64,000 nucleotides of DNA. Source: Rubrivivax sp. (GTDB lineage: Bacteria > Pseudomonadota > Gammaproteobacteria > Burkholderiales > Burkholderiaceae_C). The notes below the pieces were generated by a model. The model made no database searches, was not told the DNA's origin, and saw only the letters and a program-made list of their open reading frames with translations. Shown here piece by piece: positions 3,265 to 64,000 of the stretch. The position numbers were made by a program, and so were the translations under genes. The stretch's first letter is position 1; each line of letters begins with the position of its first letter. Location of the stretch: assembly GCA_016789955.1 (NCBI GenBank), contig JAEUPB010000036.1, positions 44,588-108,587 on the forward strand, given 5' to 3'.

Positions 3265-3270
3265 CGACCG

Positions 3271-3287
3271 GGCGGCGCGGCGCCGCC
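3271..3287. terminator. Bidirectional hairpin between convergent genes
   Basis: A 7-bp perfect stem (GGCGGCG at 3271-3277, CGCCGCC at 3281-3287) with a 3-nt loop lies in the 37-bp gap between two convergent genes. The position suits a bidirectional terminator; no T-tract is present. Confidence 0.45.
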
Positions 3288-3301
3288 GCGCTGCTGCGCA
3301 T

Positions 3302-3550: not shown

Positions 3551-3610
3551 GGGATGGGTCCTCTCGTTGGGGGTGGCAGGCGGGCCGGCGCTCTCGGACG
3601 TTCAACGTGT

Positions 3611-3847
3611 TCAACGGATTCCAGGCCCGCGCGGGGCCGGGGGTGGGGGCGGCGCGTCCAGCCGCTGCAGCCACGCCGACAATGCCGCGAGCGACGCGTG
3701 GTGCTCGGTGCCGGCGGGACCGACGGCCTCGGCGTGCCACGTGCCGCCGCCGGCACCGCCGCGCCAAAGCTCGATGCGCCAGACGACGACAGGTGCGACC
3801 GGTACGTCGGCGGGTGGGCGGCGGCGGGCTGGCGCATGGCGGGGCAT
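3611..3847 (-). CDS. Small uncharacterised protein
   Basis: Predicted protein of about 78 residues. ATG 3847 is preferred because GGGAG lies 6 bp upstream; an in-frame ATG at 3874 would add nine residues. The middle (VVVWRIELWRGG, then WHAEAVGPAG and ASLAALSAWLQRLD) alternates Trp and hydrophobic residues like a small folded beta/alpha domain. The ends are Pro/Arg-rich and probably disordered. It lies 43 bp after the BTAD regulator stop, on the same strand. It is short in a high-GC region, so a chance reading frame is possible, but the central composition is more protein-like than the shadow frames around it. Confidence 0.5.
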   Translation of the reverse strand: MPRHAPARRRPPADVPVAPVVVWRIELWRGGAGGGTWHAEAVGPAGTEHHASLAALSAWLQRLDAPPPPPAPRGPGIR

Positions 3848-3890
3848 CGAGGTCTCCCGCCCGGGGAGGTCCATCGCCCCAGGCAGGCCG

Positions 3891-6800
3891 TCAGGCTAGA
3901 GGCGAGGCGTTGATCGGCCGTTGATCGGCGTCGTTCAGCGTCGCGCGCAGCCGCGCGGCTTCCAGCGCCGGCACCGCACCGGCGGCCAGCAGGGCCTCGG
4001 CGCGGGCGCGCGGCTCGGCGTCGTCGAGGCCGGCGGCACGCGCCACGCGCAGGTGCTGCACCAGCAGCATCGCCAGCAGATCGGTCGCGGCCTCCGTGTG
4101 CGGGGGATGGTCGCGCAGCTCGGCCGCGGCACCGCCGAGGTCGCCTTCGGCCAGCGCCACCGCCGACGCCACCCAGGCGCGCAGCGCGCGTGCGTCGGCG
4201 CGGTCGACGGCCGCCGCCGCGGGCAGGAGTTCGCGCGCGCGCGCGACGTCGCCACGCTCCAGCGCCAGCCAGGCTCGCTTGCAGCCCACGGTGGCCTGCC
4301 AGCCCTGGCCCGCGCCGCCCCGGATGAGCGACTGCGCTTCCGCCAGCAGCGCCTCCGCGTGGTCGTGACGCCCGCTGAGGATCGCCAGGTCGCTGACGAG
4401 GTGCAGCGACCCCAGCAGGATCTGCTGCTCGGCCTCGCGACGGGCCATCGCGACGAGGTGATCCGCGGCGACCTCGGCGAGGCCCGTCTCGCCGCGCAGG
4501 CAATGGATGTAGTAGCGAGCCTGCAGGAACGCCTGCTCGGCGGCGAGGTGCTCGTACCACGGCGCGAGCCCCTCGCCCTCCTCCAGCAGCGCCAGCGCCA
4601 CGTCGCTGCGGCCGGCGTCGGCGTGCAGCTTGACGAGGTTCAGGATGGCCGCTCGCTGCGCCGGCACCAGGCCCCAGCGGCGCGCCAGCGCCCGGGATCG
4701 TTCGAAGCGATCGACCGCCGCGGCCCGGTCGCCCTGCACGTGCAGCGCGCACACGCCGTCCATCACGAGCGCGCCGGCGAGCTCGATCGGCTCGCCGGCC
4801 GCCTCCAGCGTGGCCACGGCGCGTCGCGCATAGGCCTGGGCCTCGGCACTGCGGCCGGACGTGACGAGGGTGCGCGACGCCGAGTCCAGCAGGTCGCCGA
4901 GCGTCACGAGCGCGTCCGGCACGCCCTGCAGCAGGCCGAACGCGGCCTCGTAGTGGCGCATCGCTGCGTCGGCGTTCCCGCCCCAGCCGGCCAGCGTGGC
5001 GCGCAGCGCGTGGGCCTTGGCGCGCTCGCGGGCCGGGGCGGCCGCCAGGTCGCCTTCGATCGCGTCGAGCAGCGCCAGCGCGGCCTCGGCCCGGTGCGCG
5101 CCGACCCACAGCTCGGCACAGGCCAGCCTCGCGCCGCGGCGTGCGTCGGCGGGCGCCTGCGCCGCGGCAGCGAGCGCCGCGTCGATGGACGCCTGCAGCG
5201 CCGGCGCGTCGGCGGCACGTCGGTGCAGCCGTGCCAGCGACAGCCACGCCTGCACCGCCTGTTCAGGCGCCGGGTGGTCGGCCAGCGCCGCGCGCCAGTG
5301 CTCGCCGGCCTGCGCCATCGCGTGCACGCGCCACGCGGCGTCGCCGGCACGCAGGCGGTGCTCGACCGCACGCGACGGCTCGCCGGCGCGCTCGAACTGC
5401 TCGGCCAGCACGGCCGGCGGGGCGCCGCGGGCCTGCAGCGCCGCCGCGAGCTGACGATGCCGCTGCCGGCGCAGCCGTGCGGGCTGCGCATCGGCCAGGC
5501 ACTGGCGCACCAGGTCGTGCGCGTAGTGCCAGGTCCCCCCATGGTCCTCCAGCAGCCGTGCCGCGCCGGCGTGCTCGAGCAGGCCGTGCACCGCGGCCGG
5601 AGCGAGACCGGCGGCCGCGGCCAGCAGGTCGCTGTCCGGCGGGCCGTCCAGCAGGCTGGCGAGCTGCAGCAGGCGCTCGCCGTCGAGGCCCAGCGCACGC
5701 ACGCGCGCCAGCACCGCGTCGCGCACGCTGGCCGGCACCGGCAGCTCGGCATAGTCCTGCGTCGCGTCGTCGAACGGCGTGCTCCAGCGGCCGTGCTCGT
5801 CCACCCGCAGCAGCCCCTGCTGGTGCAGGTGGCGCAGCGTCTCGATCAGGAAGAACGGGTTGCCGCCGGTGGCTCGCTGCAGGCGGCGCGAGAACAGCCG
5901 CCCGCCGGGGGAGTTCGACAGCGCGTGCGTCAGCGCGAGCGTCTCGTCGGCGTCGAAGCCCTGCAGTTCCACCCACGCGGCGTGGCCGCCGTCGACCTCG
6001 CGGCGCATCTGCGCCAGCGCCGGCGGCGGCAGCTGCGCGCTGCGGTGGCAGGTGAGCCGCAGCGTCGCCGGCGGCGCCGCGGCATGCGTGCTCCACGCCT
6101 CGGCGCTGAGGTCGTCGGCCCACTGCCAGTCGTCGAGGACCAGCACGGCGTAGTTGTCGGCGGCCAGCAGGCCCAGCGCGGCGTCGATCGCCGAGCGCAG
6201 CCGCGCCCGGGCCTGCTCCTCGCCGGCCTGCGTCTGCGCCGGCGGCGGGCCCAGCTCGGGCAGCAGCTGGGACAGCTCGCGCTCGACCCAGCCGGGCAGC
6301 GCCACGTCCGGTGCGGCCGCGCGCAGCGCCCGCAGCAGCCGCACCACGGCGTTCCACGGCTGCACGCGGTCCGACGGCGAGCACGCCACCTGCAGCCACG
6401 GGCCCTGCGTCGCTGCGCACTCGGCGGCCAGCCGGGACTTGCCCACGCCCGACACGCCGGCCAGCCACACCGGCCGCCGCTGCGCCCAGGCCTGCAGGAT
6501 CGCCGCGGTGGCCGCGGTGCGCGGCACGAACGGGACGCGCTCGGCGAACAGCCGCTGCGCCTGCGGCGCCGGCGCGCGCAGCGTGTCGGCCATGCGCTGC
6601 AGCGCCGCCGAAGGCTCCACGCCCAGCCGGTCGCGCAGCGCGGCGGCGGACAGCCCGTACCACGCCAGCGCCCGCGCCGGCCGGTTCGTGGCCGCCAGCC
6701 ACTGCATCGCCGCGTCCAGGGCCTGCTCGTCGCAGGGATCGGCATCGAGCATGGCCTCCACCCGCGCCAGCGCCGACTCGACGTCGCCACGCTCGTGCGC

Positions 6801-48823: not shown

Positions 48824-49420
48824 ATGCTGCGCCGACCGTTTCTGCTCACCGTGGCCGCGGCCCTGCCGGCGCTGCTCGCGCGGCCCGCCCGCGCGCAAGG
48901 AGGCGTGCCGCCCGCGGCCGCCCCGCCACGCGAAGCGTCGCAGTTCGACTTCCTGCTCGGCGCCTGGGAGCTGGAGGTCACGCCGAAGGTCGGCGGGCTG
49001 GCGGCCGCACTGCACGGCACGCCGCGCCTGGTCGGCACCTGGAAGGCCTGGCGGGCCTTCGACGGCCATGGCATCGAGGACGAATTGCGCATCGTCGATG
49101 CATCGGGCAACCCGGTGACGCTGGCGCATGCGCTGCGGCTGTACGACGCCCGCTCGAGGCGCTGGTCGATCGCCGTGGCCGACGCCTACCGCGGCCGCAT
49201 CGGTCAATCGGTCGGGCAGTGGCAGGATGGCGAGATGCGCACCACCGGCAGCGGCCCGTCGGCCGACGGCAAACCCGTCGTCACCCGTACACGCTGGCAC
49301 GACATCGGCCCGGATCGCTTCCGCATGCGACAGGACCGCTCTACCGACGACGGCGCCACCTGGGACGAGGGCGTGCTCGCCATCGCCGCCCGGCGAACCG
49401 CCGCGAAGGCCCCGCGCTGA
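48824..49420 (+). CDS. Exported DUF1579-like protein, paralogue 2
   Basis: Protein of 198 residues. ATG 48824 follows AAGGAGA at a good distance. The N-terminus (RRPFLLTVAAALPALLARPA) is a signal peptide cut near ARA, so this one is periplasmic. The mature part (QFDFLLGAWELEVTPKVGG, then RAFDGHGIEDELRIVDASG and RRWSIAVADAYRGRIG) is a DUF1579-like beta protein similar to the one encoded at 44.2 kb. It is the first gene before the two-component pair, with the kinase starting 6 bp after its stop, so it may be co-transcribed with the sensor. Confidence 0.8.
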   Translation: MLRRPFLLTVAAALPALLARPARAQGGVPPAAAPPREASQFDFLLGAWELEVTPKVGGLAAALHGTPRLVGTWKAWRAFDGHGIEDELRIVDASGNPVTLAHALRLYDARSRRWSIAVADAYRGRIGQSVGQWQDGEMRTTGSGPSADGKPVVTRTRWHDIGPDRFRMRQDRSTDDGATWDEGVLAIAARRTAAKAPR

Positions 49421-49425
49421 GCGCC

Positions 49426-50538
49426 ATGCCGCCCCGCCGCTCCGCCCCGCGGCCGGACCCGGCCGAGGCCGGTCCGTCCGCACGCGCGGGGCGCGCCTGG
49501 GTGTGGGTGCAGCTGCTGATCGGCTGGCTGCCGGCGTGGGCGATCTTCGCGCTGCTGATGCGGGGCGTGCACGACCTCGGCCCCGGCACCGCAGCGCTGG
49601 GCGCGTTGCGGCTGGTGCTGTCGGCGGCGCTGCTCGGCCTGGTGGTGCAGCGGCTCGCGCGGCGCTGGCCCTGGCCGTATCCGTTCCGCTGGCGCTTCAT
49701 GGCGCGCCATGCGCTGGCGGCACCGGCCTACGCGATCGCGTGGATCCTGCTGAACAGCGCCTGGACCAGCCTGCTGGAGGGCCGGTTCGTGGTGATCATC
49801 GGGCCGGGCCTCGTGCCGTTCTTCGTCACCGGCGTGTGGCTGTACGGGATGGTGGCCGGGGTCTCGTACGCCCACGGCGCGGCCGAGCGCATCGCGCGCA
49901 CCGAGGCCGCGCACGCCCGTGCGCAGATGGCGGCGCTGCAGGCGCAGCTGCAGCCGCACTTCCTGTTCAATGCGCTGCACACGGTGATGCAGCTCGTGCG
50001 GCTGGATCCGCCGCAGGCCGAACGCGCGCTGGAGGAGCTGGCGGCGCTGCTGCGGGCCTCGCTGGCCGAGGGGCGCGACGAGGAGCCGCTGGGCGCCCAG
50101 TGGGCGCTGGTGCAGCGCTACCTCGCCATCGAGCAGCGGCGCTTCGCCGAGAGGCTCGTGGTGGCGCAGGCGCTGGACCCCGACACCCTGCTCCAGCCAC
50201 TGCCCTCGTTCGCGCTGCAGACGCTGGTGGAGAACGCCGTCCGCCACGCGGTGGAGCCGGCGCCCCGGCCCGTGACCGTGCGCGTAACCAGCGGCCGCGA
50301 GGGCCCGCGCGCGTGGTGGGTCGAGGTGACCGACGACGGAGCGGCCGCGGCACCTGCAGTTGCCGACGGCACCACGGCGGCGGGCAGCGGCCTGGCGCGG
50401 CTGCGCGAGCGGCTGGCCTGGCGGCACGGCAGCGCCGCCGCGCTGCGGACCGAGCCGCTGGCCGGCGCCGGCTTACGCGCCCGGCTCGTGTTGCCGTGGC
50501 GCGACGTGCAGGCCGACGCGGAGGACGACGGTGACTGA
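49426..50538 (+). CDS. LytS/YehU-type sensor histidine kinase
   Basis: Inner-membrane histidine kinase of 370 residues. Four helices lie in residues about 25-160 (VWVQLLIGWLPAWAIFALLM, LVLSAALLGLVVQRL, AYAIAWILLNSAWTSLL, FFVTGVWLYGMVAG). The phospho-accepting His is in QLQPHFLFNALHTVMQLV, the N box is LQTLVENAVRHAVEP and the G box is GSGLARLRERLAWRHG, as in the HPK8/LytS group. The stop overlaps the regulator start by 8 bp. The signal sensed is unknown; the FtsX exporter across the divergent promoter is a possible target. Confidence 0.92.
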   Translation: MPPRRSAPRPDPAEAGPSARAGRAWVWVQLLIGWLPAWAIFALLMRGVHDLGPGTAALGALRLVLSAALLGLVVQRLARRWPWPYPFRWRFMARHALAAPAYAIAWILLNSAWTSLLEGRFVVIIGPGLVPFFVTGVWLYGMVAGVSYAHGAAERIARTEAAHARAQMAALQAQLQPHFLFNALHTVMQLVRLDPPQAERALEELAALLRASLAEGRDEEPLGAQWALVQRYLAIEQRRFAERLVVAQALDPDTLLQPLPSFALQTLVENAVRHAVEPAPRPVTVRVTSGREGPRAWWVEVTDDGAAAAPAVADGTTAAGSGLARLRERLAWRHGSAAALRTEPLAGAGLRARLVLPWRDVQADAEDDGD

Positions 50539-51310
50539 CGCGGCCGGAGCCACCGGCAGCGCCCCCGACGGCCGCGTGCGCACGCTGCTGGCCGACGACG
50601 AGCCGCTGGCCCGTGCCGGATTGCGCCGCATGCTGGCCGCCCTGCCGTGGGTCGACCTGGTCGGCGAAGCCGCGAGCGGCCCGCAGGCGAGCGAGGCCAT
50701 CGCCGCGCTGCAGCCCGAACTCGTGCTGCTGGACATCCGCATGCCCGGGATGTCGGGGCTCGACGTCTGGCGCGGGCTCGCGCGGCGGCCGTGGGTGGTG
50801 TTCACCACGGCCTACGCCGAGCACGCGGTGGAGGCCTTCGAGCTCGGCGCGCTGGACTACCTGCTCAAGCCTTTCGGCCAGGAGCGGCTGCACGCGGCAC
50901 TGGAGCGCGTGCGGGCACTGGCCGGCGAGCCGGCACCGCCGCCGTGGGAGCGCCTGGCCGAGGCCTGGCCGCAACAGCAGCCGCTGCAGCGCCTGTTCGT
51001 GCGCAGCGGCCGCGCGATCGTGCCGCTGCCGGTCGCGCGCGTCTCGCGCTTCGAGGCGCTGGGCGACTACGTGCTCGCTCATGCCGACGGGGCGGCGTCG
51101 GCGCACGTGCTGCACGTGGCGCTGCAGCGGCTGGCGCTGCGGCTGGACCCGCAGCGCTTCGTGCGCGTGCACCGCGCGCACCTGGTGAACCTCGACCACG
51201 TCGCAGCCTTCCGGCGCCAGGGCACGGCGCTGGCCGCGGAGATGCGCGACGGCAGCCGCGTGCCGGTGAGCCGTTCGATGGCGCAGCAGCTGCGTGGGCT
51301 GGCCCGGTAA
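50531..51310 (+). CDS. LytTR-type response regulator
   Basis: Response regulator of 259 residues from GTG 50531. The receiver domain has the acidic pair (TLLADDEPLARAG), the phospho-accepting Asp in LVLLDIRMPGMSGLD, Thr in VVFTTAYAEHA and Lys in DYLLKPFGQERL. The C-terminal LytTR domain (VSRFEALGDYVLAHADGAAS, then FVRVHRAHLVNLDHVAAFR) binds direct-repeat DNA sites. Coupled to the LytS-type kinase by an 8-bp overlap. No target sites were recognised by eye. Confidence 0.93.
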   Translation: MTDAAGATGSAPDGRVRTLLADDEPLARAGLRRMLAALPWVDLVGEAASGPQASEAIAALQPELVLLDIRMPGMSGLDVWRGLARRPWVVFTTAYAEHAVEAFELGALDYLLKPFGQERLHAALERVRALAGEPAPPPWERLAEAWPQQQPLQRLFVRSGRAIVPLPVARVSRFEALGDYVLAHADGAASAHVLHVALQRLALRLDPQRFVRVHRAHLVNLDHVAAFRRQGTALAAEMRDGSRVPVSRSMAQQLRGLAR

Positions 51311-51407: not shown

Positions 51408-52157
51408 ATGCCCGCAGCCACTCCGCCGCCCGCCGGCGCCCTCGACGCCGTGGTCGAGCGCCACCTCGCCGACCTCGTCGCCGCGTGCGTGTCCACGCTG
51501 GGCGACGCGCTGCGCTCGGTAGTGCTGTTCGGCTCGGCCGCCGAAGGCCGGCTGCGCGCCACCTCCGACGTCAACCTGCTGCTGGTGCTGGCGTCGTTCG
51601 ACGCCCCGGCGGCCGACCGCCTGCGCGAGCCGCTGCGGGTGGCCCGCGCGGCGATCGACCTGCACCCGATGTTCCTGCTCGAACCGGAAGTGCCCGCCGC
51701 GATGGAAGCCTTCGCGCTGCGCTTCGCCGACATCGCCGCGCGCCACCGCGTGCTGCACGGCAGCGACCCGTTCGCGGGCGTCACGCTGCCACGCGATGCG
51801 CTGGTGCGCCGGCTGCGCCAGGTGCTGCTGAACCTGCAGATCCGCGCCCGCGAGCGCTACTTGGTCCTCTCGCTGCGCGAGGAACAGCTGGCCCGCCACA
51901 TCGCCGACAGCGCCGGGCCGCTGCGCACGGCGGCGGCGTCGCTGCTGCAGCTCGAGGGCCGCGCGGCACCCAGCCCGAAGGAAGCGCTGGAGACGTTCGT
52001 TGCGGGCCTCGGCGAGGCCGGCCTGCAACAGGCGCTGGCGGCGATGTCGCGGGCACGTGAGGAGCAGCTGCTCGCGCCGGGCGAGGCGCCGGAGGTTGCG
52101 CTGCAGTTGATGACCCTGGGGGCGCGGCTGCGCGAGCGCGCCGCGGCGTTGGTGTGA
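51408..52157 (+). CDS. Nucleotidyltransferase-fold protein with a degenerate active site
   Basis: Protein of 249 residues. ATG 51408 has AGGGAGG about 7 bp upstream. The pol-beta-like motif is at LRSVVLFGSAAEGRLRATSD followed by VNLLLVL: the GS pair is present, but the usual D-x-D is D-x-N. The rest is helical (LRQVLLNLQIRARERYLVLS, REEQLARHIADSAGPLR), similar to HEPN-like or KNTase C-terminal helices. With a missing second aspartate it may be catalytically weak, or an adaptor. It lies 32 bp before the TIGR04222 membrane-protein gene, on the same strand. Confidence 0.7.
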   Translation: MPAATPPPAGALDAVVERHLADLVAACVSTLGDALRSVVLFGSAAEGRLRATSDVNLLLVLASFDAPAADRLREPLRVARAAIDLHPMFLLEPEVPAAMEAFALRFADIAARHRVLHGSDPFAGVTLPRDALVRRLRQVLLNLQIRARERYLVLSLREEQLARHIADSAGPLRTAAASLLQLEGRAAPSPKEALETFVAGLGEAGLQQALAAMSRAREEQLLAPGEAPEVALQLMTLGARLRERAAALV

Positions 52158-52189
52158 GCGCACCGAGGTCAGCGACCGGGAGGCCACGA

Positions 52190-53064
52190 TGACGCTGAAC
52201 CCCTTCACGCTGCACGGCATGCCCTTCGTGGTGTTCTACATCGCGCTGATGCTCGTCACCTTCATGGTGCTGCGGCGCGCGATGATGGCCGCCGAGACCG
52301 ACGGCGTGCCGCCGACGCCGCGCTACGACGACCCGTACCTCATCGCCTGCCTGCGCGGTGGCGCCGAGGAGGCGCTGCGCGTGGCCACCGTCTCGCTGAC
52401 CGACCGCGGCTTGCTGGAAGTCGACGGCGACAAGGTGCAGATGCGCAAGCGGCACGCGGCCGAGCTGGTCAAGCGTCCGATCGAGAAGGCCGTGCTGCGC
52501 TGCTACGCCACGCCCGGCGACGGCACCCGCGTGCTGCGCGACGGCGACTCGCTGAAGGCCTGCGAGGAGTACCGGTCCGCGCTCGAACGGCATGGCCTGG
52601 TGGCCGGCGCCGCGGTGCGCGAGCGACGGCTGCCGAAGGTGGCCATCGCCGCAGCCGTGCTGCTGGGCGTGGCGGCGATGCGCATCGCCGAGGCGCTGTG
52701 GAACGGCCGCCACAACCTGGGCTTCCTGATCGCGCTGTCGCTGCTGTCGGCATTCCTGCTGTGGCGCTTCTGGCGCCGGCGGCTGACCTACGCCGGCGAC
52801 GAGGCGATGACCGACCTGAAGATGCTGTTCAAGCGCCTGCCCGACCGTGCCAAGTCGCTCAAGTCCGGGGGCGAAAGCAACGAGATGGCGATGCTGGCGG
52901 CCGTGTTCGGCCTCACCGCGCTGCCCGCCGCCGCGTTCCCGTTCGTCGAGAAGATCTACCCCAAGCCGCAGAGCGACTCGTCGGGCTCCGGCGGCGACAG
53001 CGGCAGCTCCTGCGGCTCGAGCTGCAGCGGCGGTTGCGGCGGCGGGGGGTGCGGTGGCGTCTGA
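52190..53064 (+). CDS. TIGR04222-type membrane protein with Cys/Gly-rich C-terminal tail
   Basis: Protein of 291 residues. A hydrophobic segment near residues 12-27 (VVFYIALMLVTFMVL), a cytoplasmic helical region (YDDPYLIACLRGGAEEALRV, LTDRGLLEVDGDKVQMRKR) of TIGR04222 type, then two further helices around 148-185. The C-terminus is Ser/Gly-rich and ends in a run with four cysteines (SCGSSCSGGCGGGGCGG). TIGR04222-domain proteins are known to occur near DUF692 genes; here one lies two genes downstream. The tail could be a metal site or the substrate of that oxidative enzyme (inference). It overlaps the kinase gene by 11 bp. Confidence 0.82.
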
Positions 53065-56000
53065 GGAGCGGCCGCGCCCGAAGAAGCTCGGCCAGTACGA
53101 GATCGTCGACCTGATCGGCGAAGGCGCGATGGGCGCCGTCTACCGCGGCTGGGACCCGCTGATCCAGCGCCCGGTGGCGATCAAGACGATCGGCGGGGCG
53201 GTGGTCGACGACGACGACATCGCCGGGGCCAGCGCACTGGCGCGCTTCCGCAACGAGGCCATCGCCGCCGGGCGGCTGCAGCACCCGGGCATCGTGTCGG
53301 TGTTCGAGTTCGACGTGGACGACGGCACCGCCTTCATCGCGATGGAGTACGTCGAAGGCTCGACGCTGGCCGACCGCATCGGCCGCGGCGAGCCCGTCTC
53401 CGACGCGCAGGTGTCCGACTGGATGGCGCAGCTGCTCGACGCGCTGCACCACGCGCACGAGAAGGGCGTGTGGCACCGCGACATCAAGCCCGCCAACGTG
53501 CTGATCACCGCCGAGGGGCGCATCAAGATCGCCGACTTCGGCATCGCGCGCGTCGAGGGCCGGTCGCTCACCGCGGGCGTGCACCTGATCGGCACGCCCG
53601 CCTTCATGGCGCCGGAGCAGTTCATCGGCGGCGAGGTCGACCGCCGTGCCGACCTCTACTCGGCCGGCGCGCTGATGTACGTGATGCTCGCCGGCGTGCC
53701 GCCCTTCAGCGGCAGCCACCAGCAGGTGATGCACCGCTCGGTGCACGAGGCCCCGAAGCCGCTGGCGGAGATCAGCGGCGTGCGCCGCCCGCCGTACTTC
53801 CAGCCCATCCTGACCTGTGCGCTGCAGAAGGATCCCGGCCAGCGCTACGCCACCGCGAAGGAGTTCCGCGAGGCGATCGAGCAGGCCGACTCGGAGCACC
53901 GCACGGTGGTGATCCGGCTGCCGATGCGGCGGCCGTCGACCGATGCGCACCCGACGGTGAAGGATCTCCCGGTGCCGGCGCGCGACGACGTGCAGCGCCA
54001 CCTGCCGGCCGAGGCGAGCCCGTTCATCGGCCGTGCGTCGCTGGTGGCCGAGGTGCTCGAGCGGCTGCGCGCCGCGCGGCTCGTGATGCTGCTCGGCCCC
54101 GGCGGCACCGGCAAGACGCGGCTGGCGGTCCAGGCGGCGCGCCACGTGCGCGGCGTCGGCGCAGTGTGGTTCGCCGATCTCGCCGCGTTGCCGGTGGGCG
54201 CCGACATCGCGCCGGCGGTGGCGCACCTGCTGGGCGTGCCCGAGGCCGGCGGCGACGACCTGTCGAAGGCCCTTGCAGCGCGGCTGGCCGAGCCACCCGC
54301 GCTGCTGGTGCTCGACAACTGCGAGCACGTGCTGACCTCGGCCGCGGAGCTGGCTCGGGCCGTGCTCGACGGCGCGCCGGCCGCGCGGGTGCTGGCCACC
54401 AGCCGGCAGCCGCTGGGCGTGCCCGCCGAGGCTGTGCTGCCGGTGCCGCCGCTGGCGCTGCTGCCGGGTTCGGGGCCGGGCCAGGGCCCGGGCGGTCCCC
54501 CGAGCGAGGCGGCCGCGCTGTTCCTGGCGCGCGCCACGGCGGCGCGGCCCGACTACGCGGCGCAGCCCGGCAGCCGCGAGGTTGCCGAGCGGATCTGCGC
54601 GCGGCTGGACGGCCTGCCGCTGGCCATCGAACTGGCTGCGGCGCGCGTGAAGGTGCTCTCGGGCGCGCAGATCCTGGCCCGCCTGTCCGACATGCTGCGC
54701 CTGCTCACCGGCCCTGCCGATGGCCGGCAGCCGCGCCAGCAGACGCTGCGCGCGCTGTGCGACTGGAGCTGGGAGCTGCTCTCCGAGCGCGAGCGGGTGG
54801 CCTTTGCGCGCTGCGCGGTGTTCCAGGGCGAGTTCGACCTCGAGGCTGCCGAGGCCGCGATCGCTGACGAGGCGGTCGGTGCCGGCGGGAGCCTCGCGCA
54901 GGGCGACGTGATCGACGCGGTGGGCGAACTGGTCGAGCGCTCGCTGGTGGCGGCCATCGAGCGCGATGGCACGATGCGCTACCGGCTGCTGGAGACGCTG
55001 CGCGCCTACGCCGCCGAGCGGCTGGCCTCGGCCGGCGAGACCGCGGCGTTGCGGATGGCGCACGCCGCGCACTACCGGCAGCGCGCTGCCGGCATCGCCG
55101 CGCGGCTGGGCGGCCGCGAACAGCCCGCCGCGCTGGCTGACCTCGGGCGTGAGTCGGCTCAGCTCGCGGCCGCGCTGGATGCCTGCATCGAAACGCGCCG
55201 CCACGACGTCGGCGTGCCGCTGGCGGCCGACCTGTCGGCCTGCTGGCACGCCGCGGCGATCGGCCGCGAAGGCCTGCCGCGCGTCGAGCGGTTGCTGCAG
55301 GCCGCGCCGCCCGCATCGCCCGAGCTGGCGATGCTGCTGGTGCGTGCCGGTGGGCTCGAGGCGCGGCTGTTCAACCGGCTCGATCGCGGGCGCGAGCTGT
55401 GCCTGCGCGGCGTGGCGGTGGCGCAGCAGGTGCGGGCCCCGGCGCTGGTGGCGATGGGGCAGCGCTTCCTCGGCAACGTGGCGTCGCGCCAGCGCGACCC
55501 CGACGCGGCCGTCGCGCACTTCGAGCAGGGCCTCGACGCTGCACGCGCCGCCGGCGACCGCGGGCAGGAAGCGATGCTGCTGGACAACCTGGGCAGCGTG
55601 GCCATCCTGCGCAGTCGCCACGACGATGCGCGCGCCTTGATCGGGCAGGCGCAGGCGCTGTACCGCCAGCTCGGCCGCTGGGTGAACCTGGCCGGGTCGC
55701 TGATGAACCTGGGCGTCATCGAGGGCCGGCTGGGCGACTCGGCACGCGCGCAGGCGCTGCTCGCCGAGAGCCTGGAGGTGTCGCGCGCGCATGGCGACGT
55801 GCACGGCGAGGCCGAGGTGCTGGGGCAGATCGGACTGCAGCACCTCGAGGACGGCCAGGCGGCGCTGGCGGTGCCGGCGCTGCGGCAGGCGATCGTCGCG
55901 GCCGAGGGACTCGACGACGTGACTCTGCAGGCCCAGCACCACGAGCTGCTGGCGCGCGCGCTGGCCGCCAGCGCCGATGCCGCGGCGTCCCGGGCCGCGG

Positions 56001-56341
56001 CGCTGCAGGCGCTGGCCCTGCGCCGCCGGCTCGACACGCCGCGCGACGTGATGCAGGGGCTGCACGTGCTCGCCGGCGTGCTCGTCGACCACGACGCGGT
56101 GTCTGCGGCCCGGCTGCTCGGCCACGCCGCGGCGCTGCGCGAGCGGCATGGCCTGGCCCTCGCGCCCGACGAGCAGGCCGACGTCGAGCGCATGCGCGAG
56201 CGCGCCCGGGCGGGGGCCGGCGAAACGGCACACGACTCCGCGTGGCACGAGGGGCGGCTGGCCCGGCTGGATGCGCTGCTGCAGCAGCCGCTGCAGTCGC
56301 CGACGCGGCAGCCCGGCGCGGCCACGGAGCCGGCACGATGA
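53054..56341 (+). CDS. Ser/Thr protein kinase with AfsR-like ATPase and TPR domains
   Basis: Cytoplasmic protein of 1095 residues starting at GTG 53054. Residues about 12-275 are a Hanks-type kinase: glycine loop GEGAMGAVYRG, VAIK lysine, catalytic WHRDIKPANV (about 139-148), DFGIARVEG and GTPAFMAPEQF, all intact. About 330-560 is a STAND-type ATPase (MLLGPGGTGKTRLAVQAARH near 346, LLVLDNCEHVL). From about 700 to the end are TPR-like repeats (LLDNLGSVAILRSRHDDARA, GSLMNLGVIEGRLGDSARA). It resembles predicted ATPase-type regulators (COG3903) with a kinase added at the N-terminus. Coupled to the TIGR04222 gene upstream and the DUF692 gene downstream. Confidence 0.9.
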   Translation: MASEERPRPKKLGQYEIVDLIGEGAMGAVYRGWDPLIQRPVAIKTIGGAVVDDDDIAGASALARFRNEAIAAGRLQHPGIVSVFEFDVDDGTAFIAMEYVEGSTLADRIGRGEPVSDAQVSDWMAQLLDALHHAHEKGVWHRDIKPANVLITAEGRIKIADFGIARVEGRSLTAGVHLIGTPAFMAPEQFIGGEVDRRADLYSAGALMYVMLAGVPPFSGSHQQVMHRSVHEAPKPLAEISGVRRPPYFQPILTCALQKDPGQRYATAKEFREAIEQADSEHRTVVIRLPMRRPSTDAHPTVKDLPVPARDDVQRHLPAEASPFIGRASLVAEVLERLRAARLVMLLGPGGTGKTRLAVQAARHVRGVGAVWFADLAALPVGADIAPAVAHLLGVPEAGGDDLSKALAARLAEPPALLVLDNCEHVLTSAAELARAVLDGAPAARVLATSRQPLGVPAEAVLPVPPLALLPGSGPGQGPGGPPSEAAALFLARATAARPDYAAQPGSREVAERICARLDGLPLAIELAAARVKVLSGAQILARLSDMLRLLTGPADGRQPRQQTLRALCDWSWELLSERERVAFARCAVFQGEFDLEAAEAAIADEAVGAGGSLAQGDVIDAVGELVERSLVAAIERDGTMRYRLLETLRAYAAERLASAGETAALRMAHAAHYRQRAAGIAARLGGREQPAALADLGRESAQLAAALDACIETRRHDVGVPLAADLSACWHAAAIGREGLPRVERLLQAAPPASPELAMLLVRAGGLEARLFNRLDRGRELCLRGVAVAQQVRAPALVAMGQRFLGNVASRQRDPDAAVAHFEQGLDAARAAGDRGQEAMLLDNLGSVAILRSRHDDARALIGQAQALYRQLGRWVNLAGSLMNLGVIEGRLGDSARAQALLAESLEVSRAHGDVHGEAEVLGQIGLQHLEDGQAALAVPALRQAIVAAEGLDDVTLQAQHHELLARALAASADAAASRAAALQALALRRRLDTPRDVMQGLHVLAGVLVDHDAVSAARLLGHAAALRERHGLALAPDEQADVERMRERARAGAGETAHDSAWHEGRLARLDALLQQPLQSPTRQPGAATEPAR

Positions 56342-57513
56342 GCGGTCTCGCCGATCCGCGCCGCCCCGACCGCGTGGGCCTGGGCTGGCGCGGCGAACTC
56401 GCCGCCGGCATCTTCGCGCACCTCGATCGCATCGACCTCGTCGAGCTGATCGCCGACGACCACCTGCGCGCCACGCCGCGCGAGCTGCGCCCGCTGCAGC
56501 TGCTGGCGGCGCAGCGCCCGCTGACGCTGCATGGCGTGGCGCTGGGGCTGGCGGGCAGCGAACCGGTGCCTGCGCAGCGGCTGGACGCGCTGGCGCGCCT
56601 GGTGGGGCGACTCGAGCCGGTGGCATGGTCCGAGCACCTCGCATTCGTGCGCGCCGGCGGCCACGAGATCGGCCACCTCGCGGCCCCTCCGCGCACCGCG
56701 TGCAACGTCGAGGCGGCGGCGCGGCACGTCGAGCAGGCCGCGCGCGTGGTCGGCCGCGCACCGCTGCTCGAGAACATCGCCACTCTGGTCGAGCCGCCCG
56801 GCTCGGCGCTCACCGAAGCCGCGTGGACCGGCGCGATCCTGCGCACCGCCGGCGCACCGATGCTGCTGGACCTGCACAACCTGTACGCCAACGCCGTCAA
56901 CACCGGGCAGGAGCCGGCGGCGATGCTCGACGCGATGCTCGACGCGGTGACGCCCGGCTGCGTGCAGGCGGTGCACCTCTCGGGCGGGCACTGGATCGAC
57001 GAGCCGGTGCTGGGCTCCACGGCGCCCGAGTCGCCGGCTCGATCAACCGGCCAGCGCCTGCTCGACGACCACGTGCACGACGTGCCGCCGCCCGTGTACG
57101 CGCTGCTCGAGCAGCTCGCCGCACGCGTGCCCGGCCCGCTGGACGTGGTGATCGAGCGCGATGGCCGCTACCCCGCATTCGATGTGCTGCTCGGCCAGAT
57201 CGACGCCGCGCGTGCGGCGCTGGTGCGCGGGCGGGCGCGTGCGCATGCCGCCGCCGTGCTCGACCCGATGCCGGCGGAGATCGCCGATGCGGAGGCCACT
57301 GCGGCCGTGTCGCGCCTCGAACCCTGCCTCGCCCGCCTGTACGCCGACCCCGCCGCGCTCGACGGCTGGCTCGCCGACCCCGACCGGGCCAGCGCGTCCC
57401 TCGGGCTCGACGCCCACGACGCCGCAGCGCTGCACGCCGCCGACCGCACCGGCCTGGTGATGGCGGCGCGCAGCTACGCCCGCAAACGCGCGGAACACCA
57501 GGGCGCGCGATGA
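56338..57513 (+). CDS. DUF692 (MNIO) family protein with C-terminal extension
   Basis: Protein of 391 residues. DUF692/MNIO enzymes are TIM-barrel proteins that use two or three iron ions to oxidise cysteines in peptides (MbnB, TglH). Signature elements: GLGWRGELAAGIF, VELIADDHLRA, LTLHGVALGLAGS, WSEHLAFVRAGGHEIGHLA, PLLENIATLVEPPGS, MLLDLHNLYANAVN, VQAVHLSGGH and DDHVHDVPPPVYALL; the His/Asp/Glu ligand set looks complete. Residues after about 300 form a helical extension (YADPAALDGWLADPDRA, LGLDAHDAAALHAADR) not needed for the barrel. It overlaps the kinase gene by 4 bp. The Cys-rich TIGR04222 tail is a candidate substrate. Confidence 0.88.
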   Translation: MSGLADPRRPDRVGLGWRGELAAGIFAHLDRIDLVELIADDHLRATPRELRPLQLLAAQRPLTLHGVALGLAGSEPVPAQRLDALARLVGRLEPVAWSEHLAFVRAGGHEIGHLAAPPRTACNVEAAARHVEQAARVVGRAPLLENIATLVEPPGSALTEAAWTGAILRTAGAPMLLDLHNLYANAVNTGQEPAAMLDAMLDAVTPGCVQAVHLSGGHWIDEPVLGSTAPESPARSTGQRLLDDHVHDVPPPVYALLEQLAARVPGPLDVVIERDGRYPAFDVLLGQIDAARAALVRGRARAHAAAVLDPMPAEIADAEATAAVSRLEPCLARLYADPAALDGWLADPDRASASLGLDAHDAAALHAADRTGLVMAARSYARKRAEHQGAR

Positions 57514-58522: not shown

Positions 58523-61500
58523 TCAGATCAGCGGCGTCTGTCGGTTCAGCTCGTCGTCCAGCCACGAGCGCTGGGCCGGTGTCGCGGCCACCATCGTCGG
58601 GGGTGCCGCCGCCGTGGCCGGCGCTCCGCCGAGCAGGTCGCCGGCCGGCGGGGCCAGCACGTCGCCCAGGCTCACCGGCGCCTGCAGATCCTGCTTGGCG
58701 AACCACACGTCGGCCACATCGTGCTGCTGGCCCGCGGTGTCGGTCCAGCTGCCCACCATGCCGTGCACGTTGCCGTTCTCGGACTTGTCCGAGAGCACGT
58801 GGCTCAGGTCGATCTCGGCCACGCCCAGGTCCATCAGACCCTTCAGTTCGCCGAGTGCGGTCCTGCCGTCCTGGTCGGCGTCGACCCACACCTTCAGCTC
58901 GCCCCACTTCGCATCCAGCGCGCTGAGCTTGCCGTCGTGGTTGCTGTCGAGATCGGCCATCGCGTTGTAGCCGTTGCCCGCACGCTGGCCCGCGGCCGGC
59001 CCGTTCTCGAGCACCGTGGCCAGGCCGAACAGCTCGCGGCCGTCGTTGATCACGCCGTCGTGGTTGACGTCCCGCACCAGCAGGCCGTCACCCGCGCCGA
59101 CCCAGCCGACCTTGGCGCTGGTGTCGCCGGTGCCGGTGAGGTCGAAGTTGACGCCCTGCGCCGCCGACAGCGTGTGGATGCCGTCGCCGTTGAGGTCCAG
59201 CACCACCGGCGTCACCGCCATCAGCGCGCTGATCTGGGCGGAGCTCATCGCCGCGATGTCGTCGGTCTGCCAGGCGGCGTACTGCGCCGTGGTCATCGCG
59301 CGCAGGTCGGCCGTCTCCAGGCCGGCGATCTGCTCGGTGCCGAACGCGATGATCTGGTCGGTCGTCAGCGCCCGCGCCTGGGCCGTGGTGAAGGCCGCGA
59401 TCTGCTCGGTGCCGAGGGTCGCGAAGTCGGCCGTGGCGATCGAGGCGATCTGCGCCGTCGTCAGCGCGGCGATCTGGCGCGTCGTGATCGCGTCCCATTG
59501 CGCCGTGTCCAGCGCATCGAGCGCGGCCGTCGACAGAGTGCGGATCGCCGCCGTGGAGATGGCCGCCAGGTCGTCGGTGCCGATCGCGTCCATCTGCGTG
59601 GCCGTGATCGATGCCGTCTGCGCCGAGGTCAGCGCCGCGAACTGCGCGGTCGTCAGCGCATTGAAGTCATCGGTGGCCAGGGTGCTGAGCTGCGTCGTCG
59701 ACAGCGCCGCCGTCTGCGTGTTGCTGAGTGCGCCGATCTGCGCCGAGTCGAAGGCGGCGAGCGCCTCGGTGGTCAGTGCGCGGATCGCCGCGGTGCTCAT
59801 CGCCGCCAGTCGGTCGGTGGCCAGCACGTCGGTCTGCGCCGACGTGATCGCCCCGGCCTGCGTGGCCGTGAAGGCACCGAGCTGGGCCGTCGTCAGCGCG
59901 CTGAACTGCGCCGTGTCGAGCACCGCGATGTTGGCCGTGGCCAGCGAGCGCAGGGCCGTGGCGTTGATCGCCGCCAGGTCGTCGGTGGCGATGGTGTCGA
60001 ACTGCGCCGTCGTGAACGCCGCCACCTGCGCCGAGGTCAGCGCGGCCATCTGCGCCGTGCTCAGCGCGCCGAGGTCGGCCGCGTCGAGGCTGGCGATCTG
60101 GCGCGTCGTCAGTGCTGCCACCTGGGCATTGGTGAACGCCGGGATCTGCGTCGAGTCCAGCGCCGCCAGCGCGTCGGTGGTCAATGCACGCAGCGCCGCC
60201 GTGGAGATGGCCGCCAGGTCGTCGGTGCCGATCACGTCCATCTGCGTGGCCGTGATCGATGCCGTCTGGCCCGAGGTCAGCACCGCGAACTGCGCGGTGG
60301 TCAGCGCGTCGAAGTCGTCGGTGGCCAGGTTGGCGACCTGCGTGGTCGACAGCGCCGCCACCTGCGCGTTGGTGAGCGCGCCGAGCTGCGCCGAGTCGAG
60401 CGCGGCCAGCGCGTCGGTGGTCAGCGCGCGGATCGCCGCGGTCGACAGCGCCCGCAGGTCGTCGCTGCCGATCACGTCGAGCTGCGCCGAGGTCAGGCCC
60501 AGGGCCTGCGCCGAGGTCAGCGCGGCCAGCTGCGTCGTGGTCAGCGCGTCGAACTGCGCCGTGTCGAGCAGGCCGATGTCGTCGCTGCCCAGGCCCTTGA
60601 AGGCCGTGGCGCCGATCGCCGCGAGGTCATCGGTGGCGATGGTGTCGAACTGCGCGGTGGTCAGCGCGATCGTCTGCGCCGAGGTCAGCGCGGCGAACTG
60701 CGACGTCGTCAGCGCACCCAGGTCGGTGGCGTCCAGCGATGCGATCTGGCGCGACGTGAACGCGGCCACCTGCGCAGTGGTCAGCACCCCGATCTGCGCC
60801 GAGTCCAGCGCCGCCAGCGCGTCGGTGGTCATCGCCTTCAGCGAGTTCGGGCTGATCGCCGCGAGGTCGTCGGTGTTCATCGCGTCGGTCTGCACCGCCG
60901 TGATGGCTGCCACCTGCGTCGAGGTCAGCGCCGCGAACTGGGCCGTCGTCAGCGCGTTGAAGTCGTCCGTGGACAGCGAGCCGATCTGGCCGGTGCCCAA
61001 CCCGGCGATCTGGCCGGTGCCCAGCACCGCGAGCTGCGCGGAGTCGAGCGCGGCCAGCGCGTCGCTGGTCAGGGCCTTCATCGCCGCCGTCGACAGCGCA
61101 GCGAGGTCTTCGGTGCTCATCGCGTCGGCCTGCGTGGCCGTGATCGACGCCGCCTGTGCCGACGTGAACGCGGCGAACTGCGCCGTGGTCATCCCGTCGA
61201 ACTGTGCGGTGTCCAGCGCCGCGATGCTGGCGCCGGTGAGGCCCTTGATGGCCGCCGGCTGGATCGCCGCGAGGTCATCGGTGGCCAGCACGTCGGCCTG
61301 CGCCGTGGTGAAGGCCGCCACCTGCGCGGAGGTCAGGGCCGCGTACTGCGCGGTGGTCAGCGCGTTCAGGTCGGCCTGGTCGAGCGACGAGAGCTGGCGG
61401 CTCGTCAGCGCGGCCACCTGCTGCGACGTGAACGCAGGCAGTTGCGCCGAGTCGAGCGCCGCCAGTGCATCGGTGGACAGCGCGCGCACCGATGCCGTGG

Positions 61501-64000
61501 TCAGCGCGGCCAGGTCGTCGGTGGCCATCGCATCGGCCTGCGTCGCGGTGATCGCGGCCACCTGGGCCGAGGTCAGCGCGGCGAACTGCGCCGTGGTCAG
61601 CGCATTGAGGTCGTCGGAGGACAGGCTCGCCACCTGCGACGTGGCCAGGGCCGCCACCTGCGCGTTGGTGAGCGCACCGATCTGCGCCGAGTCGAGCGCG
61701 GCCAGCGCGTCGCTGGTCAGCGCGCGGATCGCCGCGCTGGTCAGCGCGCGCAGGTCGTCGCTGCCGATCACGTCGGTCTGCGCCGAGGTCAGGCCGGCGG
61801 CCTGCCCGGACGTGAGTGCCGTGAACTGCGCCGTGGTGAGGGCGTCGAACTGGGCCGTGTCCAGCGTGGCCAGGTTGGCCGTGGACAGGCCGCGCATCGC
61901 GCTGACGCTGATCGCCGCGAGGTCATCGGTGGCCAGCACGTCGGCCTGCGCGGTGGTGAAGGCCGCCACCTGCGCGGAGGTGAGCGCGGCGTACTGCGCC
62001 GTGGTGAGCGCGTTCAGGTCGGCCTGGTCGAGCGAGGCGATCTGGCGGCTGGTGAGCGCCGCCACCTGGGCGTTGGTGAGGTTGGGCAGCTGGGTCGAGT
62101 CCAGCGCGGCCAGCGCGTCGGTGGACAGCGCGCGGATCGAGCCGCTGGAGATCGCCGCCAGGTCGTCGGTGGCCATCGCGTCGGCCTGGTCCGCCGTGAT
62201 CGCGGCCACCTGGGCCGAGGTCAGCGCGGCGAACTGCGCCGTGGTCAGCGCGTTCAGGTCGTCGGTGGACATCGCCGCGATCTGCGTCGTGCCGAGCGTG
62301 CCGATCTGCGTCGGCGACAGCACCGCGATCTGGGCCGAGTCGAGCGCCGCCAGCGCATCGCTGGTCAGCGCACGCACGGCGGCCGTGCTCATCGCGGCAA
62401 GGTCGTCGGTGGCGATGGCATCGAGCTGCGCCGACGTGATGCCGACCGCCTGTGCCGACGTGAGCGCGGCGAACTGCGCCGTGGTCATCGCGTTGAACTG
62501 CGCGGTGTCCAGCGTCGACAGATTGGCCGTCGACAGGCCACGCAGCGCCGTGGCGCCGATGGCGGCCAGGTCGTCGGTGGCCAGCACGTCGGCCTGAGCG
62601 GTCGTGAGGGCGGCCACCTGGGCCGAGGTCAGCGCGGCGTACTGGGCGGTGGTGAGCGCGTTCAGGTCGGCCTGGTCCAGCGAGGAGATCTGGCGGCTGG
62701 TGAGCGCGGCCACCTGGGCGTTGGTCAGCGCCGGCAGCTGCGTCGAATCGAGCGCGGCCAGTGCATCGGTGCTCAGCCCGCGGATGGCCGCGGTGGAGAT
62801 GGCGGCGAGGTCGTCGGTGGCCAGCGCGTCGGCCTGCGTGGCCGTGATGGCGGCCACCTGGGCCGAGGTCATCGCGGCGAACTGTGCCGTGCCCAGCGAG
62901 TTGATGTCTTCGCTGGCCAGCGCCGCCAGCTGCGCGCTGGTGAGCGCGGCCACCTGGGCGTTGGTGAGGCTGCCGATCTGCGCGGAGTCGAGCGCGGCCA
63001 GCGCGTCGCTGGTCAGCGCGCGGATCGCGGCCGTGGAGAGGGCACGCAGGTCATCGGTGCCGATCACGTCGAGCTGCGCCGAGGTGATGGCTGCGGCCTG
63101 CGCCGAGGTCAGCGCGGCGAGCTGCGCCGAGGTCAGCGCGTCGAACTGCGCCGTGTCGAGCACTTCCACGTTGGCCGTGACCAGGCCGCGCAACGCTCCG
63201 CCGCTGATGGCCGCCAGGTCGTCGGTGGCGAGCACGTCGCCCTGCGCCGTGGTGAAGGCCGCCACCTGCGCCGACGTGAGCGCGGCGTACTGGGCGGTGG
63301 TGAGCGCGTTGAGGTCAGCCTGGTCGAGCGACGCGATCTGGCGGCTGGTGAGCGCCGCCACCTGGACCGACGTGAGGCTCGGCAACTGGGCCGAATCGAG
63401 CGCCGCGAGCGCGTCGGTCGAGAGCGCGCGGATCGAGCCGCTGGACAGCGCCGCGAGGTCCTCGGTGCCGATCGCATCGGTCTGGGCCGAGGTGATGGCG
63501 GCCGCCTGGGCCGAGGTCAACGCCCGGACCTGGGCCGTCGTCAGCGCGTTGAAGTCGTCGGTGGCGAGGCTGGCGACCTGGCCGGTGGTCAGCGCGGCGA
63601 CCTGGGCATTGGTCAGCACGCCGATCTGCGCCGAGTCGAGCGCGGCCAGCGCGTCGCTGGTCAGCGCACGGACCGCGGCCGTGCCCAGCGCCACCAGGTC
63701 ATCGGTGGCGATGACGTCGGTCTGCGTGGCCGACAGGCCGGCAGCTTGCGCGGAGGTCAGCGCGGCGAACTGACCGGTGGTCAGTGCGTCGAACTGGGCG
63801 GTGTCCAGCGCGGCGAGGTTGGCCGTCGAGAGACCGCGGATCGCCGTGACGCTGATCGCCGCGAGGTCATCGGTGGCGATGACGTCGGCCTGCGCCGTGG
63901 TGAGGGCGGCCACCTGGGCCGAGGTCAGCGCGGCGTACTGGGCGGTGGTGAGCGCGTTCAGGTCGGCCTGGTCGAGCGAGGAGATCTGGCGGCTGGTGAG
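58523..64000 (-). CDS. Giant octapeptide-repeat secreted protein, C-terminal 1825 residues (5' truncated by window edge)
   Basis: Open from the right edge of the window, so the N-terminus is missing. About 1600 residues consist of 8-residue units of the type A-L-T-T-A-Q-hydrophobic-A, with recurring variants ATDDLAA, LDSAQ and SDALAA. These are ordered in a 27-unit (216-residue, 648-bp) macrorepeat that occurs about seven times. After a short connection (TPVVLDLNGDGIHTL) come calcium-binding loops DLNGDG, DVNHDGVINDGRE, DSNHDGKLSALD and DADQDGRTALGE, a beta region and a Pro/Ala-rich end. No membrane helix. The layout is that of type I secreted adhesins with uncleaved C-terminal signals; the LapB-type exporter at 22-25 kb is a candidate. 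Thr/Ser in each octad could be O-glycosylated. Confidence 0.88.
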   Translation of the reverse strand, partial: LTSRQISSLDQADLNALTTAQYAALTSAQVAALTTAQADVIATDDLAAISVTAIRGLSTANLAALDTAQFDALTTGQFAALTSAQAAGLSATQTDVIATDDLVALGTAAVRALTSDALAALDSAQIGVLTNAQVAALTTGQVASLATDDFNALTTAQVRALTSAQAAAITSAQTDAIGTEDLAALSSGSIRALSTDALAALDSAQLPSLTSVQVAALTSRQIASLDQADLNALTTAQYAALTSAQVAAFTTAQGDVLATDDLAAISGGALRGLVTANVEVLDTAQFDALTSAQLAALTSAQAAAITSAQLDVIGTDDLRALSTAAIRALTSDALAALDSAQIGSLTNAQVAALTSAQLAALASEDINSLGTAQFAAMTSAQVAAITATQADALATDDLAAISTAAIRGLSTDALAALDSTQLPALTNAQVAALTSRQISSLDQADLNALTTAQYAALTSAQVAALTTAQADVLATDDLAAIGATALRGLSTANLSTLDTAQFNAMTTAQFAALTSAQAVGITSAQLDAIATDDLAAMSTAAVRALTSDALAALDSAQIAVLSPTQIGTLGTTQIAAMSTDDLNALTTAQFAALTSAQVAAITADQADAMATDDLAAISSGSIRALSTDALAALDSTQLPNLTNAQVAALTSRQIASLDQADLNALTTAQYAALTSAQVAAFTTAQADVLATDDLAAISVSAMRGLSTANLATLDTAQFDALTTAQFTALTSGQAAGLTSAQTDVIGSDDLRALTSAAIRALTSDALAALDSAQIGALTNAQVAALATSQVASLSSDDLNALTTAQFAALTSAQVAAITATQADAMATDDLAALTTASVRALSTDALAALDSAQLPAFTSQQVAALTSRQLSSLDQADLNALTTAQYAALTSAQVAAFTTAQADVLATDDLAAIQPAAIKGLTGASIAALDTAQFDGMTTAQFAAFTSAQAASITATQADAMSTEDLAALSTAAMKALTSDALAALDSAQLAVLGTGQIAGLGTGQIGSLSTDDFNALTTAQFAALTSTQVAAITAVQTDAMNTDDLAAISPNSLKAMTTDALAALDSAQIGVLTTAQVAAFTSRQIASLDATDLGALTTSQFAALTSAQTIALTTAQFDTIATDDLAAIGATAFKGLGSDDIGLLDTAQFDALTTTQLAALTSAQALGLTSAQLDVIGSDDLRALSTAAIRALTTDALAALDSAQLGALTNAQVAALSTTQVANLATDDFDALTTAQFAVLTSGQTASITATQMDVIGTDDLAAISTAALRALTTDALAALDSTQIPAFTNAQVAALTTRQIASLDAADLGALSTAQMAALTSAQVAAFTTAQFDTIATDDLAAINATALRSLATANIAVLDTAQFSALTTAQLGAFTATQAGAITSAQTDVLATDRLAAMSTAAIRALTTEALAAFDSAQIGALSNTQTAALSTTQLSTLATDDFNALTTAQFAALTSAQTASITATQMDAIGTDDLAAISTAAIRTLSTAALDALDTAQWDAITTRQIAALTTAQIASIATADFATLGTEQIAAFTTAQARALTTDQIIAFGTEQIAGLETADLRAMTTAQYAAWQTDDIAAMSSAQISALMAVTPVVLDLNGDGIHTLSAAQGVNFDLTGTGDTSAKVGWVGAGDGLLVRDVNHDGVINDGRELFGLATVLENGPAAGQRAGNGYNAMADLDSNHDGKLSALDAKWGELKVWVDADQDGRTALGELKGLMDLGVAEIDLSHVLSDKSENGNVHGMVGSWTDTAGQQHDVADVWFAKQDLQAPVSLGDVLAPPAGDLLGGAPATAAAPPTMVAATPAQRSWLDDELNRQTPLI
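59425..63960. repeat. Seven tandem 648-bp macrorepeats
   Basis: Sequences related to GGTCGGCCTGGTCGAGCG recur at 61369, 62017, 62665, 63313 and 63961, exactly 648 bp apart, and more diverged at 60721, 60073 and 59425. Each macrorepeat encodes 27 octapeptides in the same order of variants. The three at low coordinates have diverged (for example LDQADLN to LDATDLG to LDAADLG), while the rightmost four are close to one another, as expected from recent tandem duplication or gene conversion. Confidence 0.85.

Follow-up and report, generated by a model that had tools for sequence, protein, structure and literature searches.

We describe a gene module in a window of 64,000 nucleotides from Rubrivivax sp. 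(GenBank assembly GCA_016789955.1, contig JAEUPB010000036.1, positions 44,588 to 108,587 of the forward strand). The module is built around a TIGR04222 membrane protein with a cysteine-containing tail (A) and, downstream of it, a multinuclear nonheme iron-dependent oxidase (MNIO, DUF692) enzyme (C). Both belong to a conserved unit of four genes in the order U-A-C-P, where U is a predicted nucleotidyltransferase-fold protein and P a small, helical, leader-like domain; the window holds a variant of this unit, with P fused to C and a large kinase gene (B) between A and C. We see about an even chance that C, helped by P, would oxidise the cysteines of the A tail, giving a membrane-tethered tail that resembles a ribosomally synthesized and post-translationally modified peptide (RiPP), and that B is not part of this machine.

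A four-gene module recurs around the enzyme

To collect relatives of the module, contigs were scanned with two patterns from the MNIO alone (WSEHLAFV and EIGHLAAP), taken from an enzyme alignment (A2), which gave 76 loci (L065-L140). This enzyme alignment replaced an alignment of seven A proteins, dropped as a pattern source as its sequences were too diverged; a single-protein search of the contig collection with A had no matches. Since only MNIO patterns were used in the selection, and A nevertheless lies directly upstream of C in 72 of the 76 loci, the association of A with C is not due to chance. In these 72 loci, the C profile match begins -9 to +132 nt from the end of the A frame. Profiles detected C in 76 loci, A in 72, U in 60 and P in 74, and the order U-A-C-P on one strand was found in every one of the 58 loci with all four parts detected. 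P lies downstream of C in 73/76 loci; in L123 it sits 3 kb upstream.

Several of the absences coincide with contig ends. A is missing from L072, L138 and L140, in each of which the contig ends about 200 nt or less from the start of C, and from L123, where room is present; P is missing from L067 (contig end) and L132. Several of the 16 loci without U end just upstream, and L088, L099, L119, L121, L123, L126, L127 and L128 have room for it.

The record titles of the 76 loci span Betaproteobacteria, Janthinobacterium, Alpha- and Gammaproteobacteria, Acidobacteria, Myxococcales, Planctomycetes, Verrucomicrobia, Chloroflexi, Armatimonadetes, Bdellovibrionales, Leptospirales and others, though most loci are metagenome bins, whose taxon labels may err. 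This recurrence in genomes and bins labelled with many phyla makes it likely that the function of the module is a general one. Fourteen loci come from closely related Janthinobacterium that have flanking DNA in common, and five repeat loci collected earlier (L066=L064, L092=L034, L103=L040, L118=L042 and L139=L044). The alignments of the individual parts (A4-A7) leave out most Janthinobacterium loci as well as partial, split, broken or masked genes.

Close to the window's genome, TIGR04222 is rare. At an E-value of 1e-8 it was found in 3/81 genomes of the genus, 11/399 of the order, 7/369 of the class and 14/398 of the phylum, counts that include the window's own genome each time and sets that have some genomes in common. 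The six A proteins closest to that of the window (L064, L034, L040, L041, L042 and L044) are 31-55% identical to it, and five of the six are directly followed by an MNIO frame. The sixth, L041 (genome G107), lacks C and P together: U and a Cys-tailed A are kept, and the genome has no PF05114 match.

No other gene family accompanies the module with comparable regularity. When open reading frames (ORFs) of at least 110 aa from 64 loci (the window included, one Janthinobacterium kept) were clustered, with C, A, U and antisense frames set apart (the antisense families by eye), no further neighbour family occurred in more than six loci. To look for an overlooked precursor peptide, we also went through 4384 small ORFs (40-140 aa) located at most 4.5 kb from the enzyme. 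With the 14 Janthinobacterium loci set aside, none of their families occurred in more than two loci; 18 low-complexity ORFs fell outside this comparison. The A tail is thus the sole conserved Cys-rich candidate seen, in agreement with the original prediction, made from the window's letters alone, which had called it the only obvious Cys-rich peptide nearby.

The enzyme

By its domain and its ligands, C is an MNIO enzyme (MbnB/TglH/ChrH, DUF692), predicted to oxidise a peptide. Residues 13-294 match PF05114 (E 4.9e-56, 190.3 bits; gathering cut-off 25), and the AlphaFold2 model, with a predicted local distance difference test (pLDDT) score of 90.4, matches 3bww (DUF692; 1.8e-16), TglHI (5.7e-15) and MbnABC (3.5e-12) in Foldseek. 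Nine residues (H65, H100, E145, D178, N181, H213, D243, H245 and E273), whose motifs and spacing agree with those of the iron ligands listed for TglH (PMC10880893), are invariant in all 56 aligned enzymes, namely the window's and 55 of the 76 relatives. The closest curated MNIO model is that of the bufferin maturases (NF050167), for which C scores 158.9 bits, under the cut-off of 310, and we rejected an assignment of C as BufB. C itself is the one MNIO match in the window's genome assembly, which is 79.6% complete. In two metagenome-bin loci, L118/L042 and L139/L044, the MNIO frame seems interrupted or shortened, with A and P staying open.

The cysteine tail of A

A matches TIGR04222 of NCBIfam with an E-value of 4e-27 (95.3 bits; cut-off 43). 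Its AlphaFold2 model has a pLDDT of 90.7 and gave no Foldseek match in the PDB below E 0.7. The original prediction had named the tail cysteines of homologues beside DUF692 genes as the thing to check, and these proved to be conserved: C288, together with G289 and G241, is invariant in 56/56 aligned A proteins (the window's and 55 from the 72 relatives that have A), and 71 of the 72 relatives have 3-8 Cys in their last 60 residues, the other being a fragment with two (L071). The 56 aligned tails likewise carry 3-8 Cys each, spaced 3-6 residues apart in 211 of 247 intervals, with a mean Gly plus Ser content of 64% and no Lys or Arg past the first tail Cys in any of them. Two loci, L098 and L120, have two tandem TIGR04222 genes ahead of one MNIO.

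We compared these tails with those of TIGR04222 proteins that have no MNIO at their locus. The linked tails are richer in Cys: their median is 5 (n=71) and that of the unlinked tails 3 (n=25), with a Mann-Whitney p of 1e-8 that does not take phylogeny into account. The fragment L071 fell below the E-value cut-off of this count, so that n is 71. Four of the 25 unlinked proteins have no tail Cys, two of them (L043 and L058) being cut at contig ends. Because Cys tails persist in four genomes in which we found no MNIO, the terminal CGGCGG appears to be kept without the enzyme. From this comparison we read the terminal CGGCGG as a feature of the family, and the additional CGSSCGSSC-like part as the portion that goes with the MNIO.

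Three membrane helices and a cytosolic domain are predicted in A. Judged by charge, the protein begins outside the membrane, and the loops that follow helices 1 and 3 face inward. A later segment (residues 226-258) is hydrophobic enough to span the membrane in 57% of homologues (Kyte-Doolittle value of 1.6 or more), and the model splits it into short helices (230-240 and 251-256). The tail may be cytosolic and hence directly reachable by the MNIO.

Proposed modification of the tail and the case of an unmodified site

In the mechanism that we favour, the MNIO C, aided by its fused leader-like helical P domain, would oxidise cysteines of the Gly/Ser/Cys tail of A. The product would be a membrane-tethered, RiPP-like tail, most plausibly metal-binding in the manner of bufferin thiooxazoles. 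A more specific version, which we think possible but on the unlikely side, is a split RiPP whose leader has parted from its substrate: the leader would be P, travelling with the MNIO or fused to it, and the core would be the Cys tail of a multi-span membrane protein, which would become a tethered metal-binding RiPP with no precursor peptide. U, with its fixed DxN motif, would be an additional component, not described before.

Several observations weigh against modification of the tail. Of the 25 unlinked TIGR04222 proteins, 21 have Cys among their last 60 residues. Cys-tailed TIGR04222 proteins also occur in the four genomes, of 19 searched, that have no PF05114 match: G107 (three Cys) and G598, G923 and G833 (two each), at least three of which are far more complete than the window's. 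In Ramlibacter aurantiacus, no TIGR04222 gene was detected up to 9 kb from an enzyme of this MNIO clade (L123, 8998-9876). The tail may also lie on the other side of the membrane, Antoine et al. predicting a periplasmic location for TIGR04222 tails (PMC12452194). U, with its altered metal motif, has a conserved role in the module that the proposal does not explain. Since Cys tails are also found in the four genomes without an MNIO match, conservation of the tail cysteines is no proof of their modification. The RiPP-like modification of the tail by the DUF692 enzyme put forward in the original prediction accordingly stands in part: the cysteines are conserved and no rival conserved Cys-rich ORF was seen, but such tails occur without an MNIO too.

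These same four genomes would also fit a different account, which we think possible but on the unlikely side. Here the cysteines of the tail would bind metal or serve a redox role in A without being modified, and the MNIO would act on another residue of A, on U or on a remote peptide. Targets other than cysteine are known for MNIO enzymes, namely Asp, Asn and Phe residues (PMC12452194; Asp also in PMC12636437). On the other side stand the tie of this MNIO clade to a tailed protein in 72/76 loci, the extra Cys of the linked tails, and the lack of any other conserved Cys-rich ORF seen nearby.

The leader-like P domain

No Pfam or NCBIfam model matches the C-terminal extension of the window's C, which forms five helices (residues 327-390) in the AlphaFold2 model. 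Most relatives encode P as a separate small gene. It shares one open frame with the MNIO in eight of the 76 loci (L069, L075, L083, L099, L105, L121, L131 and L137) as well as in the window, the fusion being less sure in L137, where the frame continues into a hydrolase-like protein, and in L105, where the P match is in two pieces. The L137 frame (2953-5079) runs without a stop from MNIO through P into that protein.

Against the PDB, the P profile matched RiPP precursors that have a LigA domain, SonA among them (3-4e-6), as well as nitrile hydratase (1.4e-4). As for a structural relation to the PME-type 2 MNIO partners (NGO1945/TglI), the model shows a five-helix domain, and the profile matches were to LigA/NHLP proteins and not to TglI or 3dee. 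DUF2063 was not matched in four P proteins or in the P domain of the window. The Os1348 NHLP family NF038399 was matched at E 0.01 or better in 43/49 P members, the window's domain being without a match. Five P sequences scanned for bit scores gave 52.6 for L034 (cut-off 40), 27.7 for each of L040 and L044, and none for L064 and the window.

These NHLP matches raise the question of whether P could itself be the RiPP precursor, with an NHLP-type leader and, at its C-terminus, a short core rich in basic and aromatic residues on which C would act; A would then be a membrane sensor, a receptor or part of an exporter. PflA and PosA are precursors with NHLP-type leaders, and an MNIO-nitroreductase fusion is encoded in their clusters (PMC12636437). 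In line with such a core, 48 of 71 P proteins have at least 11 residues after the domain, mostly basic and with Trp or Phe; with one Janthinobacterium kept, 35 of these extensions are left, with a median net charge of +5 and Trp or Phe in 34. However, 23 of 73 P proteins, that of the window among them, have nine residues or fewer past the domain, and P stands in the enzyme's own frame in the fused cases listed above. The extensions also differ in length and sequence, with no conserved core behind the domain. We consider P as a precursor improbable, and keep to the tail of A as the likelier substrate. A test for an amphipathic anchor to the membrane, formed by the end of P, did not bear one out: the amphipathicity of the extensions is no higher than in shuffled sequences.

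The upstream protein U

A homologue of U lies upstream of A in 60 of the 76 loci. Its matches to Pfam are weak (Polbeta in 42/46 members, NTP_transf_2 in 30/46), and its best match in the PDB is an AadA-type ANT(3'')(9) (E 1.7e-7). G43, S54, D55 and N57 (alignment numbering) are invariant in all 46 aligned proteins (the window's and 45 of the 60). The window's motif is GSAAEGRLRATSDVN, in which the invariant Asn takes the place of an Asp found in the closest solved relatives. We rejected an ANT(3'')(9)-type assignment on this motif, which reads GS...SDxN in place of GS...DxD, with Asn for the second Asp in 46/46. From these matches, U is best described as a protein of nucleotidyltransferase fold that is conserved and atypical in its metal motif.

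The kinase gene B

The product of B matches Pkinase (1.5e-47, 162.6 bits; cut-off 31.7) and TPR_12 (1e-10, over its gathering score); its AAA/nSTAND matches fall below their gathering scores. The sequence contains GEGAMG, VAIK, HRDIKPAN, DFG and APE, which we take to be kinase motifs, and GPGGTGKT, presumably a P-loop. Judged by its domain match and by these motifs, which look intact, B is a Hanks-type Ser/Thr kinase.

Two segments of the window, 51412-53059 and 56356-57490, match L064 8198-9810 and 9836-10928, so that only B and a few bases are extra in the window. The DNA order of L064 is also that of L065, L067, L068, L103 and L107. Because the flanking DNA is contiguous in close relatives, B looks like a local insertion, seen in the window alone, and not a built-in switch. 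B starts at a GTG that lies inside the last part of the A frame, and in L064 it is the enzyme that appears to start in such an overlap. An assembly join at the B junctions may be considered as well, and both gene overlaps speak against it. We found no sign of a visibly recent foreign origin, as the GC content and third-position GC content (GC3) of B are like those of its neighbours (GC3 0.945 against 0.918-0.959 in six neighbours).

The original prediction had assigned the kinase the part of a sensor or switch. A dedicated switch of the MNIO-tail system would fit the overlaps on both sides, which suggest co-translation, as well as the apparently intact motifs and native composition, but we think it very unlikely: no B-like kinase or STAND protein lies between A and C in any of the 72 relatives with both genes, including L064/L066 (one contig) from the same genus. 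B-like matches occur elsewhere in four of the 76 loci (L066, L083, L137 and L139) and in 80 of the 81 genomes in the genus, that of the window among them, mostly to the kinase or STAND part alone; the best long match in the genus, in G1177, is 37% identical. The loci of three B homologues (L157, L158 and L159) have none of U, A, C or P. As a gene inserted in this lineage that overlaps both neighbours, B may tune expression or state locally.

Comparison with known systems

The pairing of TIGR04222 proteins with MNIO enzymes has already been published: Antoine et al. (2025) report the link, describe the tail and propose subsets of these proteins as MNIO substrates (PMC12452194). The window resembles their clusters in having a TIGR04222 protein with a Ser/Gly/Cys tail beside an MNIO gene. 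U, the leader-like P, its fusion to the enzyme and the kinase insertion do not appear in the passages of PMC12452194 covered here, and its main text makes no mention of kinase, nucleotidyl, NHLP or Janthinobacterium; likewise, no title on U, P or a kinase with the TIGR04222-MNIO pair was among the literature matches listed. Antoine et al. mention very small proteins after MNIO genes (adjamnio-V) without a function, and P may be among them.

Three kinds of known system are similar in part. As in the bufferins, whose maturase model comes nearest to C among the curated ones, a putative Cys-rich target is encoded just upstream of the enzyme. The precursors of bufferins carry Sec signals and go with partners of the DUF2063 type (PMC12452194), whereas the putative target here is a multi-span membrane protein. 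TglHI and MbnBC likewise combine a TIM-barrel MNIO with a partner protein, and C keeps the nine TglH ligands. TglI has a C-terminal RiPP recognition element domain and MbnC makes a hairpin contact (PMC10880893), whereas P has about 65 residues and is fused here. With the Os1348/NHLP leaders (PosA, PflA, and the LigA-like domain of the borosin SonA), P shares its matches to NF038399 and to SonA chains, but it has no conserved core and is at times attached to the enzyme instead of the substrate.

If C does modify the tail, MNIO chemistry would extend from small peptides to membrane proteins. The MNIO-P fusion would then offer a simple two-protein test system and a candidate partner protein; many TIGR04222-MNIO clusters appear to lack a partner, according to Antoine et al. 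(PMC12452194).

Coordinates and neighbouring genes

The features of the module are listed in Table 1. A, B and C overlap head to tail, A and B by 11 nt and B and C by 4 nt, bearing out the three overlapping genes of the original prediction, whose coordinates were right to within 1 nt; the U gene and the second, C-terminal domain of C were not part of it.

Table 1. Position of the module's genes and domains within the window.
Feature	Position	Strand	Length or residues	Basis
U, nucleotidyltransferase-fold protein (predicted)	51408-52157	+	249 aa	homologues upstream of A, PDB and Pfam matches
A, TIGR04222 membrane protein	52189-53064	+	291 aa	NCBIfam TIGR04222, AlphaFold2 model, hydropathy and charge
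A, low-complexity tail with Cys 275, 279, 283 and 288	52954-53061	+	residues 256-291	alignment
B, Hanks-type kinase-STAND ATPase-TPR protein, GTG start	53054-56341	+	1095 aa	Pfam
C, MNIO/DUF692 enzyme, whole frame	56338-57513	+	391 aa	PF05114
C, MNIO domain	56338-57219	+	residues 1-294	PF05114, aligned iron ligands, Foldseek
P domain fused to C, helical, NHLP/LigA-leader-like	57310-57510	+	residues about 325-391	profile matches, model

Upstream of U, positions 49405-51310 of the plus strand encode a histidine kinase (His_kinase, PF06580) and a LytTR response regulator, families that did not recur near the module in the 64 clustered loci. Downstream, an open frame of 1796 aa on the minus strand (58523-63913) consists of ALTTAQ repeats (PF20080, 47 stretches), with periods of 24 and 240 bases in the DNA.

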